From Verrucomicrobiales bacterium (lineage in GTDB: Bacteria > Verrucomicrobiota > Verrucomicrobiia > Verrucomicrobiales > DEV007), in contig JARGNI010000032.1 in NCBI GenBank assembly GCA_029213195.1, positions 1 through 61,925 on the forward strand: a stretch of 61,925 nucleotides of DNA, in the 5' to 3' direction. Below are positions 6,863 through 61,564 of the stretch, piece by piece (within the stretch, counting starts at the first letter, position 1; every line of letters starts with the position of its first letter). The notes below the pieces were generated by a model. That model saw only the letters and a program-made list of their open reading frames with translations. It had not been told where the DNA came from and made no database searches. A program made the translations under genes and the position numbers.

Positions 6863-6866
6863 TTTC

Positions 6867-25863: not shown

Positions 25864-25871
25864 GAGTTCAT

Positions 25872-41281: not shown

Positions 41282-41300
41282 GATGGAACGAGGGGGCGGT

Positions 41301-43721: not shown

Positions 43722-45238
43722 TGTCCGTGCCTGCTCCAGTCCGGACCTTCTTCCATCACATCGGCCGTGATCTCCAACAGCTCCCGTTTCAGTCGCTCGT
43801 AGACTTCCGGGAGTTCACTCGCCAGATTCTTCTTCTGCCCGATATCCGCTTTCAGGTCGAAAAGCTCGAACCCCTGATACTCCATCGCCTTGACCGCCGG
43901 AATCCACGACTCATGAAACTGATTGTGTCGAATCCAGGCGCCGCGCAGTTTCTCTGCCTCGCGGTCCTTGAAGCCCTCGAAGAGACTTGCCTTGATGGTC
44001 GCCTTCGGATTCGGATCACCGTTCTTCGCCAGCGTCGATTCGATCTGCTTCATCAGCTCAGTCATCGCCTCGCGATCACGCGGGTATTCTCTCGACTTTC
44101 GTCCCAGCAACGCGTAGCGCCCGTCGCGTACCGCGATGGGCCACCCTGACAAAGGCAGGATCCACGCCAGCGGTTGAGCGCGTTCGATCGTTTCAGCCTC
44201 TCCCGTGAGGAGCGGGGTCAGGTCCGCTCCGTCGAGAGGCACGCCCTTTGGCGGATCGATTTCCAGCAAGCCGCAGATCGTCGGAAGCAAGTCGATCTGT
44301 CCTGCTGGTTCATCGATTACGCGCCGCGCCGGAATCTTCCCCGGCCAGGAAACAATTCCGGGCACGCGGATTCCTCCCTCGAAATTCGAGCCCTTGGCAT
44401 CCCGCAACTCGCCCACGCGGTCGCGGCGGTAGCTGCCGTTGTCGGAAGAGTAGATGACCAGCGTGTTCTCATCCAGCCGGTCCAGCAACTGCTCGATCGC
44501 CCGGTCGGTGTTGTCGATCGTTCCCGAGTAGATCGCAGCGGGATCGGTCGTGTTTCCATAGTCGGCGACGATGTCATTGGGCGCGGCAATCGGCGCATGG
44601 GGCTCGTGAAACCAGACGTTGAGGAAATAGGGCTTCTCCGGGTCACGCTCCTCATTCAGCCACCGGATCGCATCTTCCACGACGAGATCGCAGGCATACC
44701 CTTCGAGCTGTCCGACTTGCTCGCCGTTGCGGATGAAATTGTTCGGATTTCGATGACTCGGCCCCGCGTTGTTGCGTGTCGCGAACCAGTAGTCAAAACC
44801 ATGCTCGGCCGGCGTCGGCTTTTTCTGATCGCGATAGGGCAAGCCAAGATGCCATTTGCCGAAATGCGCTGTCGCATAGCCTTCCGCCTTCAGGATTTCC
44901 GCCAGGGTCACCTCGCTCTCGAGCAGGTGCGATTTTTGATCGTGGTCATTGATCCAGCTGTAAACCCCCGTTCTGACATGATGCCGCCCCGTGAGCAATG
45001 TCGCCCGAGACGGTGAGCAGACAGCGGCGCCGGAATGAAAGTCGGTGAACCGCACTCCGCTGCCGGCGAGCCGGTCGAGCGCTGGCGTTTTCACCGGTCC
45101 GCCATAGCAGCGGAGGTCCTTCCAGCCGAGATCGTCGGCGAGGAGGATGACGACGTTGGGACGAGCCGTTTCTTCCGGAAACGCGCTGAGAGGAAGAAGG
45201 GCGGCCAATCCGAACGCTGCGATGAGTCCGTTTCGCAT
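43718..45238 (-). CDS. Secreted arylsulfatase (CSPSR type)
   Basis: A 506-aa sulfatase with signal peptide MRNGLIAAFGLAALLPLSAF. Metal site RPNVVILLADDLGWKDLRCYGG; maturation motif CSPSR with C74; YATAHFGKWHLGLPYRDQKK; late IYSSDNGSYRRDR. Its ATG shares one base with the stop codon of the giant protein upstream (TGATG), with GGAGGA as ribosome site inside that gene, and its own stop overlaps the DUF1592-type gene. The tight coupling suggests the four proteins are made together. Confidence 0.94.
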   Translation of the reverse strand: MRNGLIAAFGLAALLPLSAFPEETARPNVVILLADDLGWKDLRCYGGPVKTPALDRLAGSGVRFTDFHSGAAVCSPSRATLLTGRHHVRTGVYSWINDHDQKSHLLESEVTLAEILKAEGYATAHFGKWHLGLPYRDQKKPTPAEHGFDYWFATRNNAGPSHRNPNNFIRNGEQVGQLEGYACDLVVEDAIRWLNEERDPEKPYFLNVWFHEPHAPIAAPNDIVADYGNTTDPAAIYSGTIDNTDRAIEQLLDRLDENTLVIYSSDNGSYRRDRVGELRDAKGSNFEGGIRVPGIVSWPGKIPARRVIDEPAGQIDLLPTICGLLEIDPPKGVPLDGADLTPLLTGEAETIERAQPLAWILPLSGWPIAVRDGRYALLGRKSREYPRDREAMTELMKQIESTLAKNGDPNPKATIKASLFEGFKDREAEKLRGAWIRHNQFHESWIPAVKAMEYQGFELFDLKADIGQKKNLASELPEVYERLKRELLEITADVMEEGPDWSRHGQ

Positions 45239-48200
45239 CAGTCCTCCTTGGGCGGAAAGATGAATCTGGTTTCGCCCGCGGCCTCTCCGTTCTGATCGAC
45301 GGTGATCTCCTGCTCCCCGAACCGCTCATGCCATGCTCCCAAGGTGTATTCGCCTCGTGGCAGATCCGGAATCGAGAAGCGTCCCTCTGCATCCGTCACC
45401 GCGAAGAACGGGTGATCCATCACCCAGAAGTGGGCCGTCATCCAGGGGTGAAAATCGCACTTCAGGGTGATCGGGCCTTCGGCAGTATCGAATGTCTTCT
45501 CCCGGTCGGGGGAACCTGCCGGTTGGGCGATGTTGAAGGAGCGGTTCTTCCGCGAAAGGGAGCGGATGTTGTGAATGAAGGGGTCGCCATTCTTCATCAC
45601 CACTTCCTGTCCGACGCGGATGCCCTGGACACGAGGACGGAACATGGACTTCTGCTGATCGAGGACGGCGGGCTCTTTCGGTAGCGTGAAATCTCCCCGA
45701 ATCGGGCTCTTCACATAGACGAAGACATTGGCGAGGCCGCCTGATTCGCTGATGAGGACTTCCTCGTCGAGAGCGGGCTTGCCGTCGTAGAGCTTCCGGC
45801 TGGCTTCGTCCAGGGGGAGCGCTTTGCGCTTCGGGCGAGGCCCGTCGAAGCGAACGGTGCCGTTGAGCTGGCTGGCTCCTGTCGCGGGCCTGGGTGGTGC
45901 AGATGCCGTGACGTCCACCACTTCGGCACGGAGGATGAGGTCCCGGAAGGCCTCGTCTTTCACGGCGGCCAGGGAGCGCTGGAAGGCGATCAGGTCGGGA
46001 AGATCGGCCGCGGTGATTTTCAGACCGGCGTAGTCGGCGTCGCCTTCGGCGGCTCGCTGCATCTTGCCACGAAGGATGGCTTCGAGATCCGAGTTCGACC
46101 ACTTCCCGTCCCGGAGTGATCCACCGGAGGAGATCGCGAACTCCGGGGGGGAGTGACAGGCGGCGCAGTTCGTTACGCTCGCGTTGCCCTCGGAACCGAG
46201 GAAGGTCTTGAAGCCGCGATACGCCTCGAGATCGAGACCGGGCGGCAGCTTGAGCTGGATCCGACCCTCCTGGTTGGCGAGACGACCGTGGATGCGGCCG
46301 GCAAAGTCTCGCGAAGACTCGCCCTCGCGTGGCTGGTCGGGAATCCGGTTCACGTAGACGAAGGCATCGAAGGCGGAACGGCGTTCGTTGTCGAGACGAT
46401 GGACGCCCGTTTTCTTTTCCATCGATTGGGAGGTAGATGGTGGGATGGCGCCCTTCTTCGGTCGGGGCGGCTGCGCTTCGATTCGCCGGGTCACCGCCTC
46501 GACGACGCCCTTGCGGAATCCCTCCTGCGAGATCGAGTTGGCCCATTCCAAGGCACTCTCCGGATCAGAAGCCACCAGGCCGTGGGCCAATCCGTTCCTC
46601 GCGAAATCCTTGTCCCGTTCCTCGGACAATGAGTCCAGGCGACCCACGACGGCGTAGAGTTCCACGCCTCCTGCGCCTCCGCCCAGTCGTCCAAAGGCAG
46701 CCGAGAGAGCGGCGCCGCGGATCTTGGGGTCCGACTGGGATAGGGCCATCGTCACCGCCTCGAAGGGAGCCGCATCGAACTTCCCGGATTCAATCAACTC
46801 GGCGGCGGTCTTCTCCTCGACCGTTCCCGGGTTCGTCCCCGGACCTGGCTCGGCTGGCATCTCGGTGGCGCTGCCTCCCTTGGCGACGTAGTCGAGAATG
46901 CGGATGAAGGTGTGCCCCGGATTCTCCATCTTCGCCCCGGACTGGCGCCGTTCGTTGAAGAGCTGCCCGACACGCGCGCGGCGGTGCTCGGGGATGCTTT
47001 CCATGACCTGATCCACGTATTGCTGGTGGGTCTTGGGGTCGTAGTCCTCGGGAAGCTTTCGCGCTTCGATCTTGGCGAAGAGGGAGCCGAGTTGCGTGTT
47101 TCCTTCCTGCCTCTGTTTCTGTTCCTGGGCTTCGGTCAGGATCCCCTGCTCCTCCAGGCTCAGCTGGATCGGTGTCAATTTCATGCCGCCGGTTTCATCG
47201 GCATCGGCGGGAATCTCCAACTTGATGAGGGTACCACAGACATTTTCCATGTGCCGTGCGGGACCACTGGTGCTGGTCCAGACATTGCCGTCCTTGTCGA
47301 ACTCGATTTCCCGCGTGTAGCTGACGCGAAACGGTAGGGGAAATTCGACAAGATACTCGGTCTCGGGATTGAATCGATAGAGGGTGTCGTTGCCGGTGCC
47401 ACAGATCCAGACCATGCCGTTGGGGGCGACGTTGAGCGCGTAGGGAATCTGGTTGAGGTAATCGGGCAACGGGTAGGTGGTCCACTCCTCGGTTTTTGGA
47501 TCGAACTTGCCGAAGACGCCCGAGCCGAAACCGGGCACCCAGACGTTTCCATCGGGAGCGACGTGAAGGCGCCGTGGTCCGCGGAAGGGCGGGTTCCACT
47601 CGGTGATGTCGCCGTCGGGCGCCTTGGGATCGATCCGGCCGATGCGGTTTCCGTTGAGCTTGGAATACCAGATCGTTCCATCCACGGGCGAGTAGTCGAG
47701 GCCGTAGGGGGTGATACCACGGGACTCGCCCTTGCCGCCGGCTTTGACCTGGCCGGCCTCGAGGAGGTGATACTCTTTCCGCTCCAGCGTCTTCGGGTGA
47801 AGGCGGAAGACGGAGTTCCGACCCGCATCGGTATACCAGATGAGACTCTCGGGATCCTTGGGATCGGTCCGGAGCGTGTGTGGCCAGGAACCGCGTTCCG
47901 CGGGCGGCTCGGCACTGGAGAGAATGGTGTATTCCTTCGTCTCGAGATCAAACTTGGCCATTTCCCCGGAGACGCAGAGGGTCAGCCACATGTCGCCATG
48001 ATTGTCCGGCTCAATCGAGTGCGGACCGTGCGATCCACGCGGAAGCTTGTAGAAGATTCGTTCCCCGGTCTTCGGATCAAGCGTCGCGGTGTATTGCTTG
48101 CCGATGTGGACGACGTAGGCGAGCCCGTCGTCTCCGACCTCGAGATCGTGAAAGGATCCTTCGTAGTGATCTCCTATTTCCCAGGCGGTGATCTTCGCTT

Positions 48201-50658
48201 GAGTCACCATGCCAGTCGGGGCGGGAGGCGGCACATACTCGGGCCATTTCTCAACTGCATCGCCCTTGTAGGTATCGATGATGCGTTTCACGATCGTGTC
48301 CTTGGTGTGAGGATAGAGCCCGCCAAAGCCGTCCATTCGGGTAATCATGGTCTCCCAGTCGACGGGTTTCTCCGGCGTGCGAAATCCGGGCGTGCCGATC
48401 TGGTGGCAGTAACTGCACATCATTTTGAAATTCAGCCGGTCACGTGGGCTGTCGAATTTCAGCTGGGCGAACGCATCGGTGGCGGGGCGCTGCTCTTCGA
48501 GCTCGCGACCGGTAGCCGGCTCCATCGTCACGGCGATCTTATCATCACCGAGTTTCACGTCCTCGACCCAGTGATCCCGCTGGCCGGGGAGTCGGGCGCG
48601 GATGCGGTAGTCTGCCTCGTGCAGGTCGTCGATTTGAAAGCTTCCGTCCAGCTGGGAAAAAACTGAGATGCTCTGCCGATTATCGTCATCAAAAGCGGAA
48701 ACCATCACGCCTCCCATGGCCTTGCCGTCCTTCGATTTCACCGAGCCCGCCACACTGCCAGTTACTCCGGGAGTGATGGTGCCCTCAACGCGCCGAATCT
48801 CGGCCTTCACCTTGCGCTTGATATGGGGGTTGCCCTCGGCCGGAGACTGGGCCTTGGGCGAGGCTTTCGGTTTTCCCGGGGGAGGTGTCTTTCCGGATCG
48901 CACATGGTCGAGGATGCGAACGAAAGACTCGCCGCGATTTTCCATGTCGGGAAACAGCCGCTCCTGCGCTTTCCAGAGCTGACCGAGCCGGCCCATCTGT
49001 TCCGGCGAAAAACCTTTCATCACCCGTTCCACGTACGGTTGGTGCCCGTTTCCACCCGGGTAATCTTTCGGAACCTCCCGCTTCGCGATCTGCTCCAACA
49101 GCGATCGGGTCTTTGCCTCTTCCCCCATTCCGGCGAGCCAGCGCTTCACGTTTCCTTCCTCCTCGGGGAAGGCGGTGAGATACAGCTCGATCGATTCCTC
49201 GGCGGTGAGTTTTCCGGCCTCGACCATCCCGCGCAGCCGGTCGCTCAGCGCTTTCTTGGGGTCGGCTTGAGCCTCGCCCTTGGCGACGGGTTCCGGTTCC
49301 GGCCTCGTTGCGGCAGTCACCTTGGTTCCGTCCGCCGATCCACCTTCCTCGAGGCAGTAGAGAAAGCGCATTCCCCGGAGGAAGAGTTGCTTGCCGGCCA
49401 GGGCGGGGGAGGCATGGAAATTGTCGTCGAGCTGGTTGGTGGCGAGCACCTTGAACTCATTCCCGGGTTCGATCACCACGGTGGTTCCCTTTCGCCCGAC
49501 GAAGTAGATCCGCCCGTTCGCACCGACGGAAGATGCGTAGATGTCGCCGAGATCGGGAACCCGGGTGCGTTCGATGACCTCACTGCCGTCCTCGGCCCGG
49601 AGGCTCGTCAGGATGCCCTGGTTCGACTGGGTGAAATAGAGCTGACTGTCGTAGAGGATGGGTGACGGCACGTAGGGAGTTCCCCGGTCGGCTCTCCAGC
49701 GAATTTGGTCGGTGACATCTCCCGTGCCGGTGATGGGGATCGCCAGCAGCGCGTGCCCCTCGTAACCGGTCATGCAGTAAACCGTGTCTCCCGACACGAG
49801 CGGACAAGGTGTGCTGTTTCCGGTCAGTCCGGTCGCCGTCCAGATGATGTCCCCGCTTTCGAGATCGTAGCTGCGCACTGCGTTCGATGCGGTGGTGATC
49901 ACCTGGGTGCGTTCGCCGTGCTCCGCGATGGCCGGTGTGGCCCAGGCATTGCCCTCGTCGCGATCCTTCTTCCAGAGGGTCTTCCCGGTGGCGGCTTCGA
50001 GGCACTCGATGGTGGACAGGCCGGAGTGATCACGAACAATGATGAGCCTGCCTTCATGCACCACGGGAGAGCTGCCTTCTCCCAAACTCGCTCCCACTTT
50101 TGCCGGTCCGAGATCGCGCTCCCACAACTTTTCTCCATTCAACGAATAGGCAAACATCCCCGCCGAGCCGAACCAGAAATAGACTCGCTCTCCGTCGCAA
50201 AAGGGAGAAGCCGAGGCAAAGCTCGCGTCTTTGTGATGACCTTCATGAGGTACTACCGTCTTCGCGACATCGCGCCATGCCTGCTTGCCGGTACTCCGGT
50301 CGATACAGAGAACGACCATCTCGTAGCTGGTGTTCGGGAACTTGATCCCGAAGACCCGTTCGGGTTGATCCTCCGGCTTCGGCAATTTCGGATCGACCTT
50401 ACCCGTGTTGATCGCAGTGGTGAGAAACACTTTGTCGCCCCAGATGATGGGGCTGGAGGTTCCGTGCCCTTTGATTTCCGCCTTCCACTTCAGGTTCCTC
50501 TGCTCGCCCCACTTAAGCGGGGGAGTCGCGGTCCGGGAAACGCCGTTGTTCTCGGGGCCGCGCCACTGGTGCCAGTGGTCGGCCGGCGATTGGGCCTGGC
50601 TGGGCGTAGTCGCAAGAATCGAAAGGGCGGAAAGAAGGAAAGTGGCTCGGAGCGTCAT
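45238..50658 (-). CDS. Giant secreted mosaic: PQQ and Vgb propellers, two cytochromes, cupredoxin-like end
   Basis: A 1,806-aa chain from the ATG giving MTLRATFLLSALSILATTPSQAQ. Modules by residue: 25-420 PQQ/BamB-like propeller (HQWRGPENNGVSRTATPPLKW); about 520-595 module Y (first copy; ESFVRILDHV); 613-720 carboxypeptidase-regulatory-like sandwich; cytochrome c with CSYCH (C748, C751); 817-1143 streptogramin-lyase (Vgb)-like propeller; about 1190-1262 module Y (second copy; HTFIRILDYVAKG); about 1275-1390 module X (SAAFGRLGGGAGG, NGLAHGL, WANSIS, VTRRIE); cytochrome c with CAACH (C1498, C1501); 1595-1806 cupredoxin-like end with CDFHPWM. Several genes' worth of redox and binding domains lie in one frame. 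It shares a base with the downstream sulfatase start. A periplasmic oxidoreductase scaffold is inferred; substrate unknown. Confidence 0.85.
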   Translation of the reverse strand: MTLRATFLLSALSILATTPSQAQSPADHWHQWRGPENNGVSRTATPPLKWGEQRNLKWKAEIKGHGTSSPIIWGDKVFLTTAINTGKVDPKLPKPEDQPERVFGIKFPNTSYEMVVLCIDRSTGKQAWRDVAKTVVPHEGHHKDASFASASPFCDGERVYFWFGSAGMFAYSLNGEKLWERDLGPAKVGASLGEGSSPVVHEGRLIIVRDHSGLSTIECLEAATGKTLWKKDRDEGNAWATPAIAEHGERTQVITTASNAVRSYDLESGDIIWTATGLTGNSTPCPLVSGDTVYCMTGYEGHALLAIPITGTGDVTDQIRWRADRGTPYVPSPILYDSQLYFTQSNQGILTSLRAEDGSEVIERTRVPDLGDIYASSVGANGRIYFVGRKGTTVVIEPGNEFKVLATNQLDDNFHASPALAGKQLFLRGMRFLYCLEEGGSADGTKVTAATRPEPEPVAKGEAQADPKKALSDRLRGMVEAGKLTAEESIELYLTAFPEEEGNVKRWLAGMGEEAKTRSLLEQIAKREVPKDYPGGNGHQPYVERVMKGFSPEQMGRLGQLWKAQERLFPDMENRGESFVRILDHVRSGKTPPPGKPKASPKAQSPAEGNPHIKRKVKAEIRRVEGTITPGVTGSVAGSVKSKDGKAMGGVMVSAFDDDNRQSISVFSQLDGSFQIDDLHEADYRIRARLPGQRDHWVEDVKLGDDKIAVTMEPATGRELEEQRPATDAFAQLKFDSPRDRLNFKMMCSYCHQIGTPGFRTPEKPVDWETMITRMDGFGGLYPHTKDTIVKRIIDTYKGDAVEKWPEYVPPPAPTGMVTQAKITAWEIGDHYEGSFHDLEVGDDGLAYVVHIGKQYTATLDPKTGERIFYKLPRGSHGPHSIEPDNHGDMWLTLCVSGEMAKFDLETKEYTILSSAEPPAERGSWPHTLRTDPKDPESLIWYTDAGRNSVFRLHPKTLERKEYHLLEAGQVKAGGKGESRGITPYGLDYSPVDGTIWYSKLNGNRIGRIDPKAPDGDITEWNPPFRGPRRLHVAPDGNVWVPGFGSGVFGKFDPKTEEWTTYPLPDYLNQIPYALNVAPNGMVWICGTGNDTLYRFNPETEYLVEFPLPFRVSYTREIEFDKDGNVWTSTSGPARHMENVCGTLIKLEIPADADETGGMKLTPIQLSLEEQGILTEAQEQKQRQEGNTQLGSLFAKIEARKLPEDYDPKTHQQYVDQVMESIPEHRRARVGQLFNERRQSGAKMENPGHTFIRILDYVAKGGSATEMPAEPGPGTNPGTVEEKTAAELIESGKFDAAPFEAVTMALSQSDPKIRGAALSAAFGRLGGGAGGVELYAVVGRLDSLSEERDKDFARNGLAHGLVASDPESALEWANSISQEGFRKGVVEAVTRRIEAQPPRPKKGAIPPSTSQSMEKKTGVHRLDNERRSAFDAFVYVNRIPDQPREGESSRDFAGRIHGRLANQEGRIQLKLPPGLDLEAYRGFKTFLGSEGNASVTNCAACHSPPEFAISSGGSLRDGKWSNSDLEAILRGKMQRAAEGDADYAGLKITAADLPDLIAFQRSLAAVKDEAFRDLILRAEVVDVTASAPPRPATGASQLNGTVRFDGPRPKRKALPLDEASRKLYDGKPALDEEVLISESGGLANVFVYVKSPIRGDFTLPKEPAVLDQQKSMFRPRVQGIRVGQEVVMKNGDPFIHNIRSLSRKNRSFNIAQPAGSPDREKTFDTAEGPITLKCDFHPWMTAHFWVMDHPFFAVTDAEGRFSIPDLPRGEYTLGAWHERFGEQEITVDQNGEAAGETRFIFPPKED

Positions 50659-50826
50659 GGTGTCGTCTTTCTTCCGCGCTGACGGAGGAAATTCGGGAAA
50701 AGTTTTCCGAAAGTTCATTGGTCAGGTGGAGAAATAGGGAATCCGCTCCGTTTCTAAACCCACAGAGCTCTCCCTCAAGTCTTCAAGTAACTGCCAGAGC
50801 ATTCCGAAAACCAATAGTGACAATCC
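50659..50826. promoter_or_regulatory. Divergent upstream region
   Basis: 168 bases between the giant mosaic gene (minus) and the 500-aa secreted protein gene (plus); it must hold both promoters. No palindrome or clear promoter pair stands out. Confidence 0.35.
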
Positions 50827-52329
50827 ATGAAGAGATTCACCATCTCCGTCTTTTGCCTCCTTCCTCTTCTAGGACTCGGTCAAGGTTTGCCGGTACCGGG
50901 GGATTCAAGAGAGCTTTCTGAAATCGGCAGGGGCAAGCTATCCGCAGAAAGCGCCCCACCGACTTGGGTGCAATCGTTTCGAGCCGGAGAACTCGACCGC
51001 AACGGACACTACATGGGCGGATCGACAATCGTTCACCTCGTCGGCCACAAGGGCAAACTCTACGCGGGGAACAGCTACTGGCATGACGCGAGAAACATCT
51101 GGTATGGCGGAAAGGATCCCGGCACGGGCTGGGCGCAGGTGTTGAGGCTCGACGAGCCGGGAGGGGAGTGGGAAGTCGACCACGATCTTGGACCGCAGCA
51201 CCTGCGGGTGGAGATTCTCAAGTCTCTCACCTTCACGATGGATGGCTCCGGCCGAAAGCTGAGCGAACCCGTGAATCTTCTCGCGGCAGCCGAATATTCG
51301 CCCGGGGCGGACCATGTGGACATCAATTTCTTTTGCCGGAATGACCGGACGGGCGTGTGGGAGAAAGGCACGGTCTATTCGGGGCCGCGGCCGGCCGACC
51401 TGGAGGACCGTTCCTGCCGGGCCATGCGCGTTTATCGTGACAAGGTGACCGGTCTCGAACGTGTCTTTCTATCGCTCGGCAAACTCGGAGTGATCTCGGG
51501 AGTCTACGACCCACGAGCACCCGGGAAGGTCCGATGGGATTCCGAACCCGAGTCGGCCAATGTCGAAACCCGTGTCCTCGCCGTCATCGAAGCCAACGAC
51601 TCGCTCCTGTTTTCGGCGGGCCGGAAGATCTATCACCGGATCGACGGGGAAACGCCTTCCTGGGAAGTCCTACACGATATGAGCGATCTCTTTCCCAATG
51701 TCGCCAACCAGCCAATCGGGGGAATCCGAGGGCTCTCCGCAATTCCGAATCCCGAAGGAAATGGCGATTCCCTCATGTTCGTCATGGCCGAGGGCAAGCA
51801 ATCCCGGGGCACGATTTATCGACTCGATCCCGATGGAGAAGGCGGGTTTTCCCGAAATCGGGAGGCCGATCTGGCCTCATTGATGAGCGAGTACCTGGAC
51901 GGCAATCCGGTTTACTTCATCCTGGCCGCCTACAACGACATCTATCCGGTCGTCGATCCGCAATCTGGGGAGACGGTTCACTTGATCGGTTTCGACTCGT
52001 GGATCGGTGGGAAGCGCTTCCCAATGTGGCACTATGATGCCGCCAAGAACGGAGGGTTCTACGCCGGGGGCATGTATGCCATCCGCGACAGCCGCGGAAA
52101 CTATAGACTCCGCGAGATCAATGGACCTGCCGACCCATCGAAGCCGCCTCTGGTCGCGACCTGTGTCTTTGCCCGTTCCCCGTTTCCCGAGGATCGCGGC
52201 GATAGGATCTACTTCGCCGGTCACGACGGCAACCATCGGGAATCAACCAACCACGCCTGGATCTTTTCCACTTCCTTGGAAAATGCCCTGCGGCCAGAGC
52301 CGGCAATCGCATCAACGCCGCGTGATTGA
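50827..52329 (+). CDS. Secreted protein of unknown function, propeller-like
   Basis: A 500-aa exported protein (signal MKRFTISVFCLLPLLGLGQG) not assignable to a family. It has recurring short beta-strand pairs with Gly turns and Trp/Tyr (GGSTIVHLVGHKGKLYAGNSYW, RVLAVIEANDSLLFSAGRKIYHRI, GIRGLSAIPNPEGNGDSLMFVMAEG, GDRIYFAGHDGN), as in beta-propeller proteins. No haem or hydrolase motif is visible. It is 17 bases upstream of the beta-lactamase-like gene in a plus-strand run that ends with the efflux genes. Confidence 0.55.
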   Translation: MKRFTISVFCLLPLLGLGQGLPVPGDSRELSEIGRGKLSAESAPPTWVQSFRAGELDRNGHYMGGSTIVHLVGHKGKLYAGNSYWHDARNIWYGGKDPGTGWAQVLRLDEPGGEWEVDHDLGPQHLRVEILKSLTFTMDGSGRKLSEPVNLLAAAEYSPGADHVDINFFCRNDRTGVWEKGTVYSGPRPADLEDRSCRAMRVYRDKVTGLERVFLSLGKLGVISGVYDPRAPGKVRWDSEPESANVETRVLAVIEANDSLLFSAGRKIYHRIDGETPSWEVLHDMSDLFPNVANQPIGGIRGLSAIPNPEGNGDSLMFVMAEGKQSRGTIYRLDPDGEGGFSRNREADLASLMSEYLDGNPVYFILAAYNDIYPVVDPQSGETVHLIGFDSWIGGKRFPMWHYDAAKNGGFYAGGMYAIRDSRGNYRLREINGPADPSKPPLVATCVFARSPFPEDRGDRIYFAGHDGNHRESTNHAWIFSTSLENALRPEPAIASTPRD

Positions 52330-52346
52330 CTCTCACCATTCTCTTT

Positions 52347-53525
52347 ATGTCTTCCAAAATGAAACTCACCCAATCTCTCATGCTTCTGGCTGTCTTCCTG
52401 GCGCCTACGGTTACGCTCGCCCAGAATGCCCAATCGGAATTCCAGCCCGATCCAGCGGCCGCCAAGCTCGACCCGGAAGCGCTTGGGAAACTCGACGCGG
52501 CCATGGAGCAACAGGTCGTCAAGGACAAGGTCGCCGGCGTCATCGGCCTGATCGCCCGGAACGGGCAAGTTGGCTATTACGCAGCCCACGGTCAGCGATT
52601 CATCGAGCAGGACAAGCCTATGGCGAAAGACACGCTGTTCCGGATCTACTCGATGACCAAGCCAATCGTCGCCGTCACGGCCATGGCCATTTGGGAGGAG
52701 GGTAAGTTCAAGCTCGACGATCCGATCGCAGATCACTGTCCGGAATGGAACGAGCCCGTCGTCCGAAACGGCAAGGGCACGGAGGAAGCCAGGAGCCCTG
52801 TCACCGCCCGCCAGCTGTTCACCCATTCTTCCGGCCTGACCTACGATCGAAAGGGGCTGAATCTCTCGCCGACCGCGACGCTCGAGGAGTTCTCGGCATC
52901 CGCGGCGAAGAAACCGCTCAAGTTTCATCCCGGCACCCAGTATGCCTACGGCTACTCGACCGACATCCTTGGCCGTTACATCGAGGCAGTCGAAGGCAAG
53001 CCGCTCGATGTCGTGATGCGGGAGCGCGTGTTCGACAAGCTGGGCATGGACGACACCGAGTTCTGGGTGCGGAATGCCGAAGACAAGGGACGTGTCGCGA
53101 TGGTCTACACCAGGGGCAAGGACGGAAAGCTCAAGCCAGCGATGAAGATCGACGACGTCATGAAGAAGCCGGCCCGCATGATGGGCGGCCAGGGCCTGAT
53201 GTCGACGACGGAAGACTACGCGCGGTTCTGCGCGATGATGGCCAACAAGGGTGAATACGGTGGCGCCCGTGTGCTGAGAGCGGAAACCGTCGACCTGATG
53301 CTCCAGAACCACCTCAAGGACATCAAGAAAGTCTACGGACTTGGCGGCATGGTGAATGGCAAGGGCGGTTACCAATGGGGCGGTGCGGCCGGAACCCGTT
53401 TCTGGGTGGACACGAAGGAGAACGGCTACGGGGTCTTCATGATCCAGACATGGAGTTACGAGGCGCCCACCTTCGGGCTGTTCGAGAAACATGCCCGGGA
53501 GATTTTGGGGAGGCCGTCGAGGTAG
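52347..53525 (+). CDS. Secreted beta-lactamase-like esterase
   Basis: A 392-aa serine hydrolase of the class C beta-lactamase fold, EstB-like branch. Start MSSKMKLTQS chosen; the ATG four codons later is an equal candidate. Signal TQSLMLLAVFLAPTVTLAQ. Catalytic S102-M-T-K105 in RIYSMTKPIVAVTAM and the conserved YAYGYSTDILGRYIEAVEGKPL carrying the Tyr motif; C-terminal GGYQWGGAAGTRFWVD. Probably an esterase or peptidase-type enzyme. Second gene in its operon. Confidence 0.88.
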   Translation: MSSKMKLTQSLMLLAVFLAPTVTLAQNAQSEFQPDPAAAKLDPEALGKLDAAMEQQVVKDKVAGVIGLIARNGQVGYYAAHGQRFIEQDKPMAKDTLFRIYSMTKPIVAVTAMAIWEEGKFKLDDPIADHCPEWNEPVVRNGKGTEEARSPVTARQLFTHSSGLTYDRKGLNLSPTATLEEFSASAAKKPLKFHPGTQYAYGYSTDILGRYIEAVEGKPLDVVMRERVFDKLGMDDTEFWVRNAEDKGRVAMVYTRGKDGKLKPAMKIDDVMKKPARMMGGQGLMSTTEDYARFCAMMANKGEYGGARVLRAETVDLMLQNHLKDIKKVYGLGGMVNGKGGYQWGGAAGTRFWVDTKENGYGVFMIQTWSYEAPTFGLFEKHAREILGRPSR

Positions 53526-53606
53526 TGATTCACACGAAGCGAACTGCCCGTGAATCCGTTTCCGAATCTCTCGAACGGACGAGGAGATCATTATAGAATC
53601 GCTGGA

Positions 53607-54884
53607 ATGGAGATGCCTCCCGAGAACGATCAATATCCGCCGACACCATCGAACGTGGGCGGAAAGATCGTGCGTCTGCTGCTCCCGGTCGCATTACTCG
53701 CGGCGGGGTGGTTTGGCTTTTCCCAGCTGAGCGTCAAGCCGGAGGCGGCCAGGGAGGAGGAGCAGGAAGCAAAGCCCATCAAGACGCGGGTCACAGAACT
53801 GGAGGTCGTCGATTTCCGGACGGTCGTCACCACCCAGGGAACGATCCGTTCGCACGAGAAAGTTCCGCTGAGCTCACAGGTCGCGGGTGAGATCGTGCGG
53901 ATTCATCAGAACTTCGAGGACGGCGCCTTTTTCGAGAAGGGTGAAATCCTCCTCGAACTCGATCCCTCCGATTTCGAGGCCGCCCTCGCCGCAGCCGAAT
54001 CCGAGAAGGTCCGCGCCGAAGTCGCCCTTGCCCAGGAGGAGGCTCGCGCGGAGCAGGCGCGGCTCAACTGGGAGAGGCTCGGCAAGCAAGACGAACCCGG
54101 TGAACTTGTCATGCGACTTCCCCAGTTGAAAGAGGCCAGGGCGAATCTCGCCGCCGCCACCGCTGCTTATGGTAGGGCGCAACGCGACCTGGAACGGACA
54201 AAGATTTCGGCGCCGTTTGCCGGGCGGGTTCGCACGCGAGATGTCGGGCTGGGCCAGACGATCGCCACGGCCACTCCTTTGGGCACCGTGTTTGCGATCG
54301 ACTACGCGGAGGTGCGGTTGCCGCTGTCGTCCCGCGATCTGGCTCTCCTGGATTTGCCGGAGGATGCGAGTGACCCTGCTGTCGCTGTGGTATTGACCGA
54401 CGGGCTCAACCTGGAGAATCCCGCGACTTGGGAAGCGAGGATCGTTCGGACCGAGGGCGTTCTCGATCCCGACTCACTCGAACTGTTTGCCATCGCCCGC
54501 ATCAGCGATCCCTTTGGACGAGAATCGGGCGAGCCACCGCTGCGAATTGGTCAGCCCGTGGTAGCGCGCATCGAGGGCAAGATTCTCGAACGGGTGCTTG
54601 CCCTGCCTCGTGGCGCGGTCTTTCAACTCGACCAGATCCGGTTGATCGACAAAGACGACCTCACCCTGTCGTCCCGAACGATCACCCCGCTCTGGTCCGA
54701 CGAGGAACACATTCTTATCCGCGATCCCTCCATCGATCCCCGCACACAGGCTCTTGCCCTGACCCGTCTCGTTTACGCACCCGAAGGTGCCAAAGTGGAA
54801 ATCGTCCCGAACATCGACGACTCCGACGACGACGACCTCACGCTCGACGCGGATGTGGCAGAAAGGGACGACACCAGTTCGTAG
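53607..54884 (+). CDS. RND efflux periplasmic adaptor (membrane fusion protein)
   Basis: A 425-aa HlyD/AcrA-type adaptor linking an inner-membrane RND pump to the outer membrane. An N-terminal anchor (IVRLLLPVALLAAGWFGFSQL) is followed by the first lipoyl half (TQGTIRSHEKVPLSSQVAGEIVRIHQNFEDGAFFEKGEIL), an alpha-helical hairpin rich in Glu/Ala (about 140-215), the second lipoyl half (ERTKISAPFAGRVRTRDVGLGQTI) and beta-barrel. The Asp-rich C-terminal tail (DDSDDDDLTLDADVAERDD) is unusual. The pump gene starts 19 bases downstream. Confidence 0.94.
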   Translation: MEMPPENDQYPPTPSNVGGKIVRLLLPVALLAAGWFGFSQLSVKPEAAREEEQEAKPIKTRVTELEVVDFRTVVTTQGTIRSHEKVPLSSQVAGEIVRIHQNFEDGAFFEKGEILLELDPSDFEAALAAAESEKVRAEVALAQEEARAEQARLNWERLGKQDEPGELVMRLPQLKEARANLAAATAAYGRAQRDLERTKISAPFAGRVRTRDVGLGQTIATATPLGTVFAIDYAEVRLPLSSRDLALLDLPEDASDPAVAVVLTDGLNLENPATWEARIVRTEGVLDPDSLELFAIARISDPFGRESGEPPLRIGQPVVARIEGKILERVLALPRGAVFQLDQIRLIDKDDLTLSSRTITPLWSDEEHILIRDPSIDPRTQALALTRLVYAPEGAKVEIVPNIDDSDDDDLTLDADVAERDDTSS

Positions 54885-54903
54885 CCGCACCATTTCCTCA
54901 ATC

Positions 54904-57900
54904 ATGATTCGCTGGTTCACCAACAACGGGATCGCCGCCAATTTCCTGATGGCAGCCATCCTGTTGGCCGGCTGCTACACCGCCTTCAACAAGATCCCTC
55001 TCGAGGTGACGCCGCAACTGAGTTGGGACACGGTGATGATCGACATTCCCTACCGCGGGGCGACCGCGAAGGACGTCGAGCGTGCCATCCTGATCCCGGT
55101 CGAGGAAGCGCTCGAAGGCGTCAACGGCATCAAGATGCTCCACTCCGACGGCTCCCGCGGACATGCCAGGTTCTACATCAATGCCCGTTCGGGGACGGAT
55201 CTCCGGGCGCTGATGGACGATGTCAAAGCCCGTGTCGATGCGATCGAGACCTTCCCCGATGAGATCGAACCGCCGCAAGTTCGCATTCCCGATTCAGCCA
55301 ATGCCTTCGAGGTGCTGACGGTTGCCGTCACGGGAGAAATGAGTGCCCTCGAATTGCGCGACGCTGCCCGAAAGGTCATGGAAGACCTGCTCGAGCTTCC
55401 GGGCATCAGCCTGGCACGGCTCTCACCGAATCCCCGGATCGAGATTTCCGTCGAGGCGCGGCCCGAGAAGCTGGAGGCCTATGATCTCAGCTTCCAGGAA
55501 CTCGCCGACGCGATCCGCCGTTACTCGATCGACCTGCCGGCTGGAGCCATCGAAAGCGACAGCGGCACCCTGACCGTCCGCACCAGAGGGCAGGCCTACA
55601 ATCGGAAGGAGTTCGAGGAAATTCCGGTGCGCTCGGCCGACGGCGCCGAAGTCCGGCTCGGTGAAGTCGCCGCCGTGATCGAGGAGTTCGTCGGGAAGGA
55701 CAAAATCGTCGAGTTCGACGGTAAGCCGGCGCATTTCGTAGAGATCATGCGGACGGGGAACGAGAGTGCGATCGCCATTTCGGACAAGGTCCAGGAATAC
55801 GTCGATACCGCCGGCTCCCGGTTTCCGGACGGGATCGAACTCGGAATCTGGAAGGACACCTCTTACGCCATTCGCGGTCGACTCAGCACGCTCGCGGTGT
55901 CGCTGATGCAGGGGATGGTGCTCGTCGCGATTGTGCTGGGCATTTTTCTCCGGCCGGCGCTCGCCTTCTGGGTCGTGCTCGGTATTCCGGTCTCTTTTGC
56001 AGGCGGTGTGCTGCTGATGCCATGGTTCGGGATCACCGCCAACGTGATGAGCCTTTTCGGCTACATCATCGTCGTCGGGGTGGTCGTCGACGATGCCATC
56101 ATTACCGGTGAGAACGTCTTCCAGAAGCAGAAGGAAGGACTCTCACCGCTTGAGGCCGCCGTGGTCGGAACCAAGGAAGTGGCCGTGCCAGTGACCTTTG
56201 GCATTCTCACCACCATCGTGGCCTTCCTGCCGCTACTCTATTTCGAGGGGACCTGGGGCGATTTTGCCCGGCAGATTCCACCAGTTGTGGCGCCTGTGCT
56301 GCTTTTTTCGCTGGTGGAGTCCAAGCTGATTCTACCGGCTCACCTCAAGCATCTCCGGATCCGGGAAGCGAAGAACTGGTTCAGCCGGATGCAGACCTCG
56401 ATCGCCAACGGCCTGGAACGATTCGTGGAGAAGGTTTACCAACCGTCGCTCGACTTCGCGATCCGCTACCGTGCCTCCGTGCTCGCCCTGTTTGTCGCGA
56501 TGGGACTGGTGATGGCCGGCTATTGCCTGGGTGGGCGGATCGGATTTCAATCCTTCCCTTCGGTCGACACCACGCGGATCAGCGCTTTCCTCGATCTGCC
56601 AAACGATACCCCGATCGAAGTGACCCATCGCTACATCCAACGCATCGTCGCTGCCGTCGACGTTCTGAAAGAGGAGTTTGTCGATCCGGGATCGGGGGAG
56701 TCGCTGATTCGGCACACCTCGATCATCACCGGAGGCACCCGGCGCGGACGCGGCTACGACAAGTCGGAGGGACTTGTCCAGATCGAGGTCACCGCGCCGG
56801 ATCACCGTAGTGAACCGGGTCCGAAGAACAGTGTCATCGTCGAGCGCTGGACCGAGATCATCGGCGAGATTCCCGAGGCGACCCAGTTCCGGACCTTTTC
56901 CGAATCCACCCTGAAGAAGGGCGTGGAGTACGATGAGGAAGCGCTCAACCTCGAACTACGGGGACCGTCTTCAGATGAAAAGGCCGAGGTTGCCGAGCAG
57001 ATTAGCGATTTGCTGGAAGGCTACGAAGGAATCAGCTCGGCATGGGCTCGCGTGAACTTCCGGAGCAACGGACTCGAGTTTACCCTGAAACCGCGGGCCG
57101 CCGAACTCGACGTGACCCAGCAGCTGCTGGCCCGCGAGATCCGACAGGCTTTCTTCGGCGAGGAAGCCCAGAGGGTTCAGCGGGGAATCGATAGCATCCG
57201 AGTGATGGTGCGACTGCCGGAGGAGGAACGTCGCTCTCTCCATACCCTGGACCAGTTGAAGATCCGCACGCCGCGCGGTGCAGAGGTCCCGCTGGCCACC
57301 GTCGCCGAGGTCGAATTTATCAAGGCGCCGTCTTTCGTTGAGCGCAACGACGGGGCCGAGGTCATCCGAATCGGCGGGCAGCCCATCGACGAGAATGTCG
57401 ACATCGTCGGCATTTCCAAGGATCTCGAACCGAAGATTGAGGCGCTCTGCGCAGAGGGTGGATACACGTTTCAATGGGTCGGCTACGTCGCTGAAGCGGA
57501 GGAAGCGCGAAAGCGGACCATCATTGGATCGCTGGCACTGCTCTTCGCGCTGTACGCGATGCTGGCGATTCCCTTCCGGTCGATGGTTCAGCCCTTTTTC
57601 GTCCTGATCGCCCTGCCATTCGGTGTGATCGGTGCACTGCTCGGCCACATGATCATGGACATCACTCCCTCCTACCTTTCGGTGTTCGGCATGCTGGCGT
57701 TGGCGGGAGTCGTAGTGAACGATTCGCTCGTCATGGTCGATTACATCAACCGCCGCCGCCGAGAGGGCATGAAACTACTCGAAGCGTGCCGCGAAGCCGG
57801 GGGACGACGGTTTCGCCCCATCCTGCTCACCTCGATCACGACTTTCGTCGGTCTCGCCCCGTTGATGTTCGAGCGATCACTCCATGCCCAGTTTCTCATC

Positions 57901-58077
57901 CCCATGGCTGTCTCGCTTGGCTTCGGCGTGATGTTCGCCACCGTCATCACGCTCTATCTCATCCCTTGTTCGCTCCTCGTGGCGGAGGATCTGGGACGGA
58001 TCCTGCGAAAACTCTACCGTTGGTATCAGGCGCCCTTTCGCCCTGGAGAAGTCCTGGGTAAAACCGGGACAAGGTGA
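54904..58077 (+). CDS. RND-family efflux permease
   Basis: A 1,057-aa inner-membrane pump of the AcrB/HAE superfamily; starts at the ATG giving MIRWFTNNGIAANFLMAAILL. The proton-relay pair of TM4 is kept (VVVDDAIITGENVF), while the TM10 lysine of E. coli AcrB is replaced (AGVVVNDSLVMVDYINRR), as in many HAE-1-like environmental pumps. Typical duplicated halves with two large periplasmic loops. Cotranscribed with the adaptor; no outer-membrane TolC-like gene is in the window. Substrate unknown. Confidence 0.95.
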   Translation: MIRWFTNNGIAANFLMAAILLAGCYTAFNKIPLEVTPQLSWDTVMIDIPYRGATAKDVERAILIPVEEALEGVNGIKMLHSDGSRGHARFYINARSGTDLRALMDDVKARVDAIETFPDEIEPPQVRIPDSANAFEVLTVAVTGEMSALELRDAARKVMEDLLELPGISLARLSPNPRIEISVEARPEKLEAYDLSFQELADAIRRYSIDLPAGAIESDSGTLTVRTRGQAYNRKEFEEIPVRSADGAEVRLGEVAAVIEEFVGKDKIVEFDGKPAHFVEIMRTGNESAIAISDKVQEYVDTAGSRFPDGIELGIWKDTSYAIRGRLSTLAVSLMQGMVLVAIVLGIFLRPALAFWVVLGIPVSFAGGVLLMPWFGITANVMSLFGYIIVVGVVVDDAIITGENVFQKQKEGLSPLEAAVVGTKEVAVPVTFGILTTIVAFLPLLYFEGTWGDFARQIPPVVAPVLLFSLVESKLILPAHLKHLRIREAKNWFSRMQTSIANGLERFVEKVYQPSLDFAIRYRASVLALFVAMGLVMAGYCLGGRIGFQSFPSVDTTRISAFLDLPNDTPIEVTHRYIQRIVAAVDVLKEEFVDPGSGESLIRHTSIITGGTRRGRGYDKSEGLVQIEVTAPDHRSEPGPKNSVIVERWTEIIGEIPEATQFRTFSESTLKKGVEYDEEALNLELRGPSSDEKAEVAEQISDLLEGYEGISSAWARVNFRSNGLEFTLKPRAAELDVTQQLLAREIRQAFFGEEAQRVQRGIDSIRVMVRLPEEERRSLHTLDQLKIRTPRGAEVPLATVAEVEFIKAPSFVERNDGAEVIRIGGQPIDENVDIVGISKDLEPKIEALCAEGGYTFQWVGYVAEAEEARKRTIIGSLALLFALYAMLAIPFRSMVQPFFVLIALPFGVIGALLGHMIMDITPSYLSVFGMLALAGVVVNDSLVMVDYINRRRREGMKLLEACREAGGRRFRPILLTSITTFVGLAPLMFERSLHAQFLIPMAVSLGFGVMFATVITLYLIPCSLLVAEDLGRILRKLYRWYQAPFRPGEVLGKTGTR

Positions 58078-58113
58078 CAGGTGATTGATCAAACTGCGAA
58101 AACGACTTTTCGC

Positions 58114-58998
58114 CTAACGCCGTTCGATCCGCCTGGTCACATTCTCTACCACTACCTTGCGGAATCCCTCATTGGAGATGGAGTTGGCCCATTTCAGAGC
58201 ACTCTTCGGGTCTCGACCAGCAAGCCCGTGAGCCAGTCCGTTGATCGCAAAATCGCGGTCGCGCCCGTCCTCCAGCGAGTTCAAGCGCTTGACGGCATCG
58301 TTGATCTGGATTCCTCCGACCCCTCCACCCAGCCGGCCGAATGCGGCCGACATCACGGTTCCGCGGGCCTGGGGGTTGGACTGGGAAAGCGCCATCTTGA
58401 TGGCGTCGTCGGGAGCCCGGTCGAAACCGCCTCCTTCGATGAATTTTGCGATGGCCCGACCTTTCTCAACAGGGTCCTGGATCTCGTTGATCGAATCAGG
58501 CAGGATGTTGTGCGCGATCATTTTCACCGCGAACTGCAGCGACCGTTCCCGGACGCCACGAGCCGTGAGTTCGCTCGCCTTCCGGGCTCGTTCCTTGTCG
58601 TAGTAGACTCGGACGGTTTCCCCACCTTCCATCGCAACGGAAGCCCTGGCCACCTCCAGATCCTCAGGTCGCTCGAACTCGACCAGCTTCCATCCCAGGA
58701 GGTTCGGGATCTCGGAAACGGCCATGGTTCGGCCGTCCGTGGTGTCGATGAGGGTGACGAACAGTTCGCCGTTCAATTCGGCGAAGCCGGTCAGGACGAG
58801 GGTGTCGGAGAGGTTGAGCGAGCGGGTGAAGGGGGAGTGTTCCAGGAGCGCCTGGAAGTGTTCGGCCGTCAAAGACATTGGCAGGACGTCCCGATTCGGG
58901 TCGGCGCGGGCGGACCAATCGCAACAGGTCAGTCCAGCCAGAGCGAAGACACTTGCCTTGATTCCTGTGCCCGTCCGTCGTGCCATGCGAATCGCCAT
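58114..58998 (-). CDS. Secreted protein A: SPFTR domain plus module X
   Basis: A 294-aa exported protein, family not recognised. Signal peptide about 1-30 (KASVFALAGLTCCDWSARA). Residues 40-145 form a domain (LTAEHFQALLEHSPFTRSLNLSDTLVLTGFAELNGE) paralogous to that of the upstream gene. Residues about 175-292 form module X (MALSQSNPQARGTVMSAAFGRLGGGVGG, INGLAHGL, ALKWANSIS, VTRRIE), which recurs at about residues 1275-1390 of the 1,806-aa mosaic with most positions identical. The DP.SAL.WANSI pattern resembles a helical-repeat unit. Last gene of the ECF sigma/FecR operon, four bases after protein B. Confidence 0.7.
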   Translation of the reverse strand: MAIRMARRTGTGIKASVFALAGLTCCDWSARADPNRDVLPMSLTAEHFQALLEHSPFTRSLNLSDTLVLTGFAELNGELFVTLIDTTDGRTMAVSEIPNLLGWKLVEFERPEDLEVARASVAMEGGETVRVYYDKERARKASELTARGVRERSLQFAVKMIAHNILPDSINEIQDPVEKGRAIAKFIEGGGFDRAPDDAIKMALSQSNPQARGTVMSAAFGRLGGGVGGIQINDAVKRLNSLEDGRDRDFAINGLAHGLAGRDPKSALKWANSISNEGFRKVVVENVTRRIERR

Positions 58999-59002
58999 CG
59001 AA

Positions 59003-59755
59003 TCACTTTTCGTTTTTCTCGACGTAGTCGAGGATCTGCGAGAACACCTCGCCCCTCTGCCGGTCGCTCAGGTTGGGATTCGACTTCATCTTCTCCTGCA
59101 TGATCTCCCCGACCCGGCGTTTTTGATGATCGGAAAACTTGCTCATCCGGCTCTTCACCCATTCGCCGAACTTGCGCCGCTCTTCCTGCGTCGGCAACGG
59201 GCGTCGGTCGGGACCCCGAGGGGTTTTCGGCAGAGACCCGGCTCCCGTCTTTCGCTGGGCGGGATTCAGTTGCTCTTCGCGATACTTGAGAGTGACAACT
59301 TCGCCTCCGGCGAGGGAGAAGGTGGCGGACACCTGCGCCGGATCGGGATTCTGATTCAGCTCCACGATTTTCCACCCCTCGGTGTTCGCGGTCTCGGACA
59401 GCTGGAATCGTTTCTTGGTCTCCCGGTTGACCATTGTCGCGACCTGCTCGCCATCGATCAGGGCCACGCCCATCAGCTGAAAGGTTTCGGAAGGATCCAA
59501 CACTCGCGTGAAGGGGGAGCGCTCGAGCAGTTCCTCGAAATGCTCGTCCTCGAGGGGCTGGGGCAGGATCGAATCCTCCAGATCCTCCGCGAAACCCGGC
59601 AAACCCGAGAAGAGTAGAAGCGAGCCCGAGGCAACGATGACTGCTACCCAGGGGGGGCGGCAAGACGAGGAGCTCCGGAGCCGTGTGGGATGCGAACGGC
59701 AACCGGTCGAAGCCGATTCAACTCGGCGATCGAAAGGCAATGCGAGGAATGTCAT
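59003..59755 (-). CDS. Secreted protein B: SPFTR domain plus module Y-like end
   Basis: A 250-aa exported protein, family not recognised. Signal region PPWVAVIVASGSLLLFSGLPGFA. Residues 65-165 carry the same domain as protein A (LEDEHFEELLERSPFTRVLDPSETFQLMGVALIDGE ... WKIVELNQNPDPAQVSATFSLAGGE). The C-terminal 80 residues (KFGEWVKSRMSKFSDHQKRRVGEIMQEKM then EVFSQILDYVEKNEK) match module Y, seen twice in the 1,806-aa mosaic. Its ATG overlaps the FecR stop by four bases. Confidence 0.7.
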   Translation of the reverse strand: MTFLALPFDRRVESASTGCRSHPTRLRSSSSCRPPWVAVIVASGSLLLFSGLPGFAEDLEDSILPQPLEDEHFEELLERSPFTRVLDPSETFQLMGVALIDGEQVATMVNRETKKRFQLSETANTEGWKIVELNQNPDPAQVSATFSLAGGEVVTLKYREEQLNPAQRKTGAGSLPKTPRGPDRRPLPTQEERRKFGEWVKSRMSKFSDHQKRRVGEIMQEKMKSNPNLSDRQRGEVFSQILDYVEKNEK

Positions 59756-61047: not shown

Positions 61048-61564
61048 CGCTCCAGCCCTCCTTTCTCAGGAACAGGTCCACGCAATCGAGCAACTGCCCG
61101 CGAATCTTTTCCAGGGCGTAATAGAGTTTGTGCATGCTGACCCCGGTCTTCTCGGCTTCCTCCTTCACGGCGCCGTGACGGCCGTAGCGGAGGTAGACCC
61201 ACTTGCGCTGCTGATCGCTCAGCTTGCTGAGGCAGGAGTCGAGCGCCTTGCGCCGCGCTTCCATCAGCGGAGCTTCCTCGTCGTGGCGCTTGTGCAGTTG
61301 TTCCAGCAGCGAGTCTGAGAACACCAGTTTCTCCCGCGCCTGCCGCTGTCGCCATTTCAACACCTCGAGGTAGGCGAAGCGAATCGCCCAGGGAACAAAG
61401 GGCCGCTCCGGATCATATTGGTCCCACTTTTTCCAGAGGAGCACCGAGACATCCTGCAAGACTTCGGCCGCGTCGGCCTGTCGCGGAATCATCATGAAGA
61501 GATACCGCTCCACCTCCGCCTGGTGGCGGGTCCAAAGCCTGACAAACTCGGAGTTCGGATCCAT
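61040..61564 (-). CDS. ECF RNA polymerase sigma factor (PVC type)
   Basis: A 174-aa sigma factor from the ATG giving MDPNSEFVRLWTRHQ (another ATG lies four codons upstream). Region 2: RYLFMMIPRQADAAEVLQDVSVLLWKKWDQYDPERPFVPWAIRFAYLEVLKWR. Region 4: LSKLSDQQRKWVYLRYGRHGAVKEEAEKTGVSMHKLYYALEKIRGQL. Heads a compact four-gene operon (sigma, FecR, proteins B and A). Paralogous to the sigma factor at 8549-9133. Confidence 0.94.
   Translation of the reverse strand: MDPNSEFVRLWTRHQAEVERYLFMMIPRQADAAEVLQDVSVLLWKKWDQYDPERPFVPWAIRFAYLEVLKWRQRQAREKLVFSDSLLEQLHKRHDEEAPLMEARRKALDSCLSKLSDQQRKWVYLRYGRHGAVKEEAEKTGVSMHKLYYALEKIRGQLLDCVDLFLRKEGWSDA

Follow-up and report, generated by a model that had tools for sequence, protein, structure and literature searches.

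In ferric-citrate systems the TonB receptor FecA drives FecR, and cellulosomes are assembled through dockerin and cohesin, small modules without catalytic function that recur at the ends of several secreted enzymes belonging to one system. Verrucomicrobia are rich in PSCyt/PSD and sulfatase genes; these are neighbours there, and PSCyt2/PSCyt3 genes lie beside two unknown gene families, according to a survey which, in the sections used here, calls the function of PSCyt genes unknown (He et al. 2017, PMC5615132). We report on a related locus in the window, i.e. the entire contig of 61,925 bases from a Verrucomicrobiales genome of 5.9 Mb in 115 contigs. It combines the genes of an extracytoplasmic function (ECF) sigma factor and of FecR with those of two small proteins, A and B, and of a giant mosaic protein, which between them carry a domain that we call SPF and three modules, X, Y and Z. 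On balance, we favour the view that the ECF sigma/FecR pair controls a secreted redox-and-sulfatase system, the parts of which bear X, Y and Z as non-catalytic helical modules and would be joined either by fusion or through these modules.

The locus shares the PSCyt/PSD and sulfatase neighbourhood with the system of PMC5615132. The sections of that survey used here mention neither the modules X, Y, Z, SPF and WA (WA is our own label for a type of helical-repeat protein of Verrucomicrobia) nor control by ECF/FecR, nor a mosaic in split or fused form. As in ferric-citrate systems, the genes of the ECF sigma factor and FecR (TIGR02989 and PF04773) are adjacent and both products score above the curated cut-offs, but the next slot is here filled by SPF-X and SPF-Y proteins or by WA proteins; no search aimed at a TonB receptor was made. 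Like dockerin and cohesin, X, Y and Z are small non-catalytic modules repeated on several secreted enzymes, but no dockerin or cohesin Pfam match appeared at E 1 among 23 Z/Y, 14 SPF and 10 X members, and no scaffold with repeated receptor domains was seen in the loci read, where no dedicated search for one was made.

The right end of the window carries the row ECF sigma-FecR-B-A (61576 to 58114, minus strand), and the genes of the mosaic, a sulfatase, a PSD/PSCyt protein and an HXXSHH protein lie further left (50658 to 40034, minus strand). The proteins and modules on which the argument turns are the following.

61040..61576, minus strand: ECF sigma factor (TIGR02989 Sig-70_gvs1), likely start ATG 61564; NCBIfam 150.6 bits, above the curated cut-off of 124.55
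59752..61047, minus strand: FecR-type anti-sigma; PF04773 59.6 bits, above the cut-off of 24; one membrane-spanning stretch by reading
59003..59755, minus strand: protein B, 250 aa; SPF domain 59261-59584 and Y module 59006-59254
58114..58998, minus strand: protein A, 294 aa; SPF domain 58579-58902 and X module 58117-58467
45238..50658, minus strand: mosaic, 1806 aa from ATG 50658; the open frame 45238-50718 has 1826 aa
49123..49287, minus strand: Z in the mosaic, between the PQQ propeller and Y1; profile from the sulfatase Z of three other genomes, 1e-18
48886..49122, minus strand: Y1 in the mosaic; B-type Y profile, 6e-17
46870..47103, minus strand: Y2 in the mosaic; B-type Y profile, 1e-12
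46459..46818, minus strand: X in the mosaic; profile from A proteins, 1e-52

The earlier note had described A and B as sharing an N-terminal domain and differing in their C-terminal modules, and this proved correct: the SPF domains are 37% identical across A residues 33-148 (E 6e-18), A being SPF-X and B SPF-Y. Its placing of X (46475-46830) and of two Y copies (46870-47075 and 48880-49085) in the mosaic is right within a few codons, and its length of 1,806 aa corresponds to the frame from ATG 50658, an internal start which precedes a signal-peptide-like stretch (by reading). It overlooked the Z module and six further SPF paralogs elsewhere in the genome. The mosaic reads, in order, PQQ_2 propeller, Z, Y1, CarboxypepD_reg, cytochrome c (CSYCH), Vgb_lyase propeller, Y2, X, cytochrome c (CAACH), a cupredoxin-like stretch assigned by reading, and a CarbopepD_reg_2 that scores under its Pfam cut-off.

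The strong conservation of X that the same note had pointed out was confirmed, with 63% identity over 114 aa between A and the mosaic (46474-46815; E 2.3e-41). The Y profile that finds Y1 and Y2 was made from B-type proteins only; Y1 and Y2 match each other at E 1.5e-8, and B's Y is too distant from Y1 for a comparison of single sequences (E 0.06). In the reverse direction, a Y profile derived from the enzymes recovers the Y of B at 1.3e-10 (12 proteins searched), and the X of A proteins is found by an enzyme-derived X profile with E values between 3e-51 and 1e-58. These pairwise and profile comparisons established homology of the X, Y and Z copies carried by A, B and the mosaic and, in relatives, by sulfatases and by propeller proteins that stand alone; chance repeats are excluded for X and Y by the E of 2e-41 and the cross-family profiles. 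Neither Pfam nor the solved structures searched by sequence offered a convincing or significant relative for X, Y, Z or SPF. Among the Pfam matches were SHOCT-like_DUF2089-C with the window Z-Y1 (16.7 bits, under the cut-off of 27; 2 of 23 members matched at E 1), the Sel1 repeat (PF08238) with three of ten X members (best E 0.046) and Metal_resist (PF13801, CpxP/Spy-type) with one of 23 Z/Y members (E 0.0017).

The distribution was followed in 74 genomes of the family, 288 genomes of the order and 384 genomes sampled evenly from the class. X gave some match at E 1e-3 in 44 of the 74 family genomes. At E 1e-27 or better there were 20 matches, namely 10 A-type proteins, six mosaics, three sulfatases and one WA-repeat protein (in G066), the next match standing at 2e-10. 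With the G066 protein left out, X occurred in 12 family genomes and the mosaic, taken as its CarboxypepD_reg-cytochrome-Vgb part at E 1e-60, in 15, both being present in 11 (Fisher 4e-9, relatedness uncorrected); the sole genome with X and no mosaic (G056) has its A on a 5.9-kb contig. Where a genome has a second X carrier besides A, as six do, the two always share a contig, at nearest distances of 3.5 to 11.3 kb. The co-occurrence anticipated in the earlier note is thus borne out, in the form of one conserved locus with its parts split or fused. In the order, Y was found at E 1e-6 in 38 of the 288 genomes of the order, in three of its families. At E 1e-18, X appeared in two genomes of the class sample, which seems to hold few genomes of the own family and gives no count for it: the own genome and one genome of another family, where one Vgb protein and one WA protein carry it.

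With regard to its wider kinship, X matched the WA2-type proteins L041 and L040 by profile (E 1e-11 to 2e-12), more precisely the C-terminal repeats of the WA2 of genus g2 (E about 1e-11), from which it differs by its FGRLGGG loop and its NGLAHGL motif, neither of which is seen in that WA2 by reading. The 20 weaker matches whose surroundings were fetched were all of WA type; four belong to ECF-FecR-WA1-WA2 operons with an ortholog of the window sigma factor, and one is a WA1-WA2 pair with no ECF gene within the fetched stretch. By these matches, X is a locus-specific branch within a wider WA-type helical-repeat family. As for SPF, the own genome has six further SPF proteins away from the cluster (on C36, C72, C2, C81, C44 and C11); the 12-kb stretches around them hold no match to the window FecR and one ECF match (L018), and the SPF protein of C81 follows a frame which we take to be the end of lon.

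The predicted structures agree with a helical nature of the modules. The model of A (mean predicted local distance difference test score, pLDDT, 83.9) has six strands (residues 67-133) and, further on, helices (176-293), and its block means lie between 94 and 98 from residue 171 onward; its predicted template modelling score (pTM) is 0.51, so that the relative placement of the two domains is unsure. X resembles HEAT-like superhelices, a common arrangement: in the VIA search, the rows of which cover residues 154-294 of A only, the best match was importin-4 (Z 8.1, rmsd 5.5, 140 aligned). The Z-Y1 model is wholly helical (mean pLDDT 85.4), and the fold search with Z-Y gave no clear match (best Z 4.6, rmsd 3.7, 70 aligned). 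Foldseek on A returned nothing at E 0.001; its third match was chain Pa of 3jc8, the type IVa pilus machine, at a non-significant E of 0.2. We take this chain to be PilP. SPF, predicted as a six-strand domain, may resemble the PilP-type domain, but it shows no sequence match or Pfam match of that kind.

The relatives present the same parts in many combinations. Y follows a PQQ propeller directly (L138, G019) or after Z (L156, G017), stands between a sulfatase and PSD (L160, G262) or between PQQ and YNCE/ankyrin (L150, G082), and ends a YNCE/ankyrin-sulfatase protein at six loci (L144, L148, L151, L152, L158, L159). L106 has a PQQ-sulfatase-Y protein plus a CarboxypepD_reg-cytochrome-Vgb-Y protein, and L147 has CarboxypepD_reg-cytochrome-Vgb-X. 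The locus of genus g2 has another arrangement and comprises ECF-FecR-WA1-WA2, PQQ-sulfatase-Y, CarboxypepD_reg-cytochrome-Vgb-Y and CarboxypepD_reg-cytochrome-Vgb-Y-cytochrome-Y-cupredoxin-like; G035 shows all of these together, and the short contigs of G033, G034 and G036 show parts of the set. The window sulfatase lacks Z-X, and its counterpart in three other genomes ends in Z-X (L059, L060 and L062 of G007, G011 and G030); in G007 and G030, where the sulfatase bears Z-X, the mosaics are without X. Over all mosaics, X is absent at L059, L062, L114 and L115, and Y2 at L057, L058 and L061. An assembly artefact was set aside for the mosaic, the PQQ and Vgb parts of which share one frame in at least 10 genomes.

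Two broken or shortened mosaics were observed besides. On C81 of the own genome (L024, 7305-9785, minus strand), a paralog 74% identical to the first 810 residues of the mosaic is then broken off; it has a promoter element of its own (18.3 bits), and a further ECF sigma gene lies close by. In G028 (L064, 8530-11748, plus strand), the mosaic stops within the Vgb propeller and runs on as HXXSHH, as if the sulfatase and PSD genes had been deleted.

The strongest rival explanation, which we hold to be unlikely, is that the modules are passive by-products: through frequent fusion of operon neighbours and C-terminal exchange, X, Y and Z would be leftover ends of SPF-Y and WA proteins with no binding role. 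It would account for the lack of X or of Y2 in some mosaics, for the module-free giants encoded in the same window (a 2991-aa GH2-TraB-sulfatase-GH43 protein, a GH127-sulfatase and a double sulfatase) and for the tree of 26 X rows, in which X sorts mostly by carrier (4 changes, the minimum possible being 3), as if a few transfers had been followed by inheritance. However, no other part of A is as conserved as X (77% mean identity versus 58% for SPF, with X ahead in 45 of 45 pairs), and 35 of its positions are invariant over 10 copies from A, mosaic and sulfatase carriers. Also, the same modules recur on many units, at unit boundaries in those listed above, Y in three families of the order and X in one further family of the class. 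Finally, four other window proteins of 1202-2991 aa gave no match to X, Y or Z better than E 0.14, and the idea that X and Y generally serve giant proteins as linkers was set aside on this ground. The conservation of X and its absence from the other giants speak against the by-product explanation.

Returning to the favoured system of jointly controlled parts, a two-part element, TTTTCCGAATWT and GGA at a spacing of 15 nt, was found upstream of the ECF genes across genomes. It was scored in the fetched stretches with matrices built from 17 and then 15 ECF genes of other genomes; the window was left out of both, the G052 and G057 rows were dropped from the second, and G035 and G036, with no site to anchor, are in neither. 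Three sites of the window matter here.

61620..61653, minus strand: ECF-type promoter element before the sigma gene, TTTTCCGAATAT, GAAT to GGA 15 nt; 31.1 and 30.2 bits, top or joint top of the window
50700..50733, plus strand: strong element before the P10-beta-lactamase-MFP-RND genes; 28.7 and 30.2 bits, second or joint best of the window, overlapping the site of the mosaic
50670..50703, minus strand: weak element before the mosaic ATG 50658; 13.4 and 12.0 bits, rank 4 in the window

In five other genomes the mosaic has a site of 28.5 (G055), 22.2 (G057), 20.9 (G011), 19.1 (G021) or 15.2 bits (G028). The element also precedes A in G021 (29.4 bits), the sulfatase-Z-X and PSD genes in G011 (21.4 and 25.8 bits), PQQ-Y in G019 (18.3 bits) and YNCE/ankyrin-sulfatase-Y in G041 (21.4 bits). 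Among 335 non-ECF genes, 8 of the 49 that bear modules and 3 of the 286 others had a site above 15 bits close to their start (p 1.4e-5), the controls being neighbours, several genomes having also fed the matrix via other sites, and related genomes not being independent. Hence the co-regulation by the ECF sigma factor suggested in the earlier note finds backing in an element defined on other genomes, whereas the mosaic site of the window itself is weak. We regard one ECF regulon with split and fused parts as well supported by these promoter sites, and the conservation of the element across genomes supports the placing of a good share of the module-bearing genes in it. Together, module sharing and the promoter element would tie one PSCyt/PSD-sulfatase cluster to propeller, cytochrome, cupredoxin-like and RND genes as a switchable unit.

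Simpler patterns had been tried. CCGAATWTCCN11GGAA has two exact sites in the whole genome, before the sigma gene and the mosaic, and ten with one mismatch, the reversed control giving none; as it was drawn from its own two sites, we rely on the matrices that exclude the window. An early pattern found a mosaic site only in the window and G011; for G055, G057, G021 and G028 the matrix later located such sites at shifted positions. The third match of the early pattern in the window (36367, minus strand) was rejected, as it falls by reading within a gene on the opposite strand. Of the six sites of TTTTCCGAAN16GGA in the genome, two fall within the window (reversed control, one site).

The slot after FecR bears on the role of A and B. 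An ortholog of the sigma factor at no less than 62% identity occurs in 20 of the 74 family genomes, own genome included, and these together with one at 47% make up 21 ECF loci at E 1e-50. SPF proteins directly follow FecR in six of the 21 (G000, G028, G030, G031, G055, G057) and WA proteins in nine (G033, G034, G035, G036, G041, G042, G043, G049, G052); in the other six, the contig ends (G021, G044, G046, G056) or neither type was seen (G019, G065). The two types never occur together there (0/21), which suggests that SPF-X/SPF-Y and WA1/WA2 do the same job. This placement, found in 15 of 21 loci, together with the enrichment of the regulon's promoter element before module-bearing genes, would also suit a regulatory role, in which FecR has A and B or the WA proteins as periplasmic partners and the enzyme-borne X and Y compete for the same site, thereby reporting the amount or engagement of the enzymes to the sigma switch. 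We find such a role improbable: FecR has no known partner site, a position after FecR also fits plain co-expression, and SPF proteins occur in seven 12-kb stretches (six in the own genome, one in G019) that hold no match to the window FecR.

We propose instead that X, Y and Z dock the parts of the system together. FecR would sense an outside signal, perhaps a glycan, and release the sigma factor; the parts would be exported and then held together through X, Y and Z; A and B would be non-enzymatic docking partners, replaced in other genera by WA-repeat proteins, membrane-anchored by reading, in the same slot; and the mosaic would be the same assembly with several parts fused. More specifically, and tentatively, since we lean against it as a complete account, X, Y and Z may form a small docking code, with no sequence match to dockerin, that assembles ECF-controlled cytochrome, copper, propeller and sulfatase units outside the cytoplasm, the giant fused chain being an alternative form. 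The analysis thus supplies three candidate connector domains and names a sigma factor the trigger of which could reveal the substrate. Alternatively, Y and X might be C-terminal sorting signals that direct exported proteins to one site of the envelope or anchor them there; in carriers with a single unit (PQQ-Y, Vgb-Y, Vgb-X and sulfatase-Z-X), the module stands at the C-terminus or beside it. A sorting role appears very improbable to us: the 895-aa sulfatase-Y protein of L154 departs from this placement, Y and X are internal in the mosaic, sulfatase-Y-PSD and PQQ-Y-YNCE/ankyrin, and the modules are predicted as folded helical domains rather than short signals.

Several observations weigh against the docking-and-regulon view. 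First, contact between modules is neither shown nor predicted for any pair. Second, the set is not wholly private. The earlier note had seen in it an uncharacterised interacting set; X, Y and Z do sit in one locus and system, but as stated this is not supported for SPF, a general Verrucomicrobiales family (E 1e-4 in 127 of the 288 genomes of the order). The same note had allowed that the modules might be generic helical repeats: this is so in part for X as a superfamily, 15 of the 20 sampled WA-type matches lying in other contexts, and not for the X branch of A, mosaics and sulfatases. Third, fusion alone is weaker evidence here, as neighbour fusion looks common in this window with its other giants. 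Fourth, the mosaic site of the window could alone be due to chance, hits above 12 bits being expected about 0.45 times per random window (40 first-order random windows gave 18 such hits, and one above 20); at 14 bits no site was found for the mosaics of G007 and G030; and 41 of the 49 module-bearing genes were without a site in the enrichment test, some of them perhaps because they lie inside operons or have miscalled starts. Fifth, seven sites of at least 18 bits stand before or inside other genes (L060 at 3373, L064, L068, L123, L125, L138 at 13491, L143), and the four TTTTCCGAAN16GGA sites outside the window (C34:62216, C57:111199, C81:125680, C115:22826) are possibly other members of the regulon or chance.

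The remaining genes of the locus are as follows.

43718..45238, minus strand: sulfatase, PF00884 211.3 bits, above the cut-off of 25; CSPSR present, an instance of the sulfatase motif C-x-P-S-R
41301..43721, minus strand: PSD2-PSD5/PSCyt1/PSCyt3 protein (DUF1585, 1587, 1588, 1592, 1595)
40034..41323, minus strand: HXXSHH (DUF1552) protein, Pfam match
50827..58077, plus strand: P10 (500 aa), beta-lactamase-family hydrolase, HlyD-type membrane fusion protein (MFP) and RND transporter

Elsewhere in the window, a 2991-aa open frame (13064-22039, plus strand) has GH2, TraB/PrgY, two sulfatase, GH43 and 3-keto-disaccharide hydrolase domains, and beside it lie two further large fusions, 22036-25863 (GH127-sulfatase) and 25764-29372 (two sulfatase stretches). 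A second ECF sigma cluster (395-9133, minus strand) encodes proteins of 324 aa (having a hydrophobic stretch) and 225 aa, an HXXSHH protein and a 1561-aa PSD/PSCyt protein; its 324-, 225- and 1561-aa proteins have no X, Y or Z match. An anti-phage system was dismissed, six proteins having given no PADLOC match at E 0.001.

The P10-beta-lactamase-MFP-RND row, missed in the earlier note, sits on the plus strand between the ECF-FecR-B-A row and the mosaic-sulfatase-PSD-HXXSHH row. A Pfam scan of P10 gave zero matches. These four genes probably form one operon belonging to the same ECF regulon, and their relatives were found near the system elsewhere, at L144 (MFP and RND), L147 (hydrolase and RND), L148 (P10) and L073 (hydrolase).

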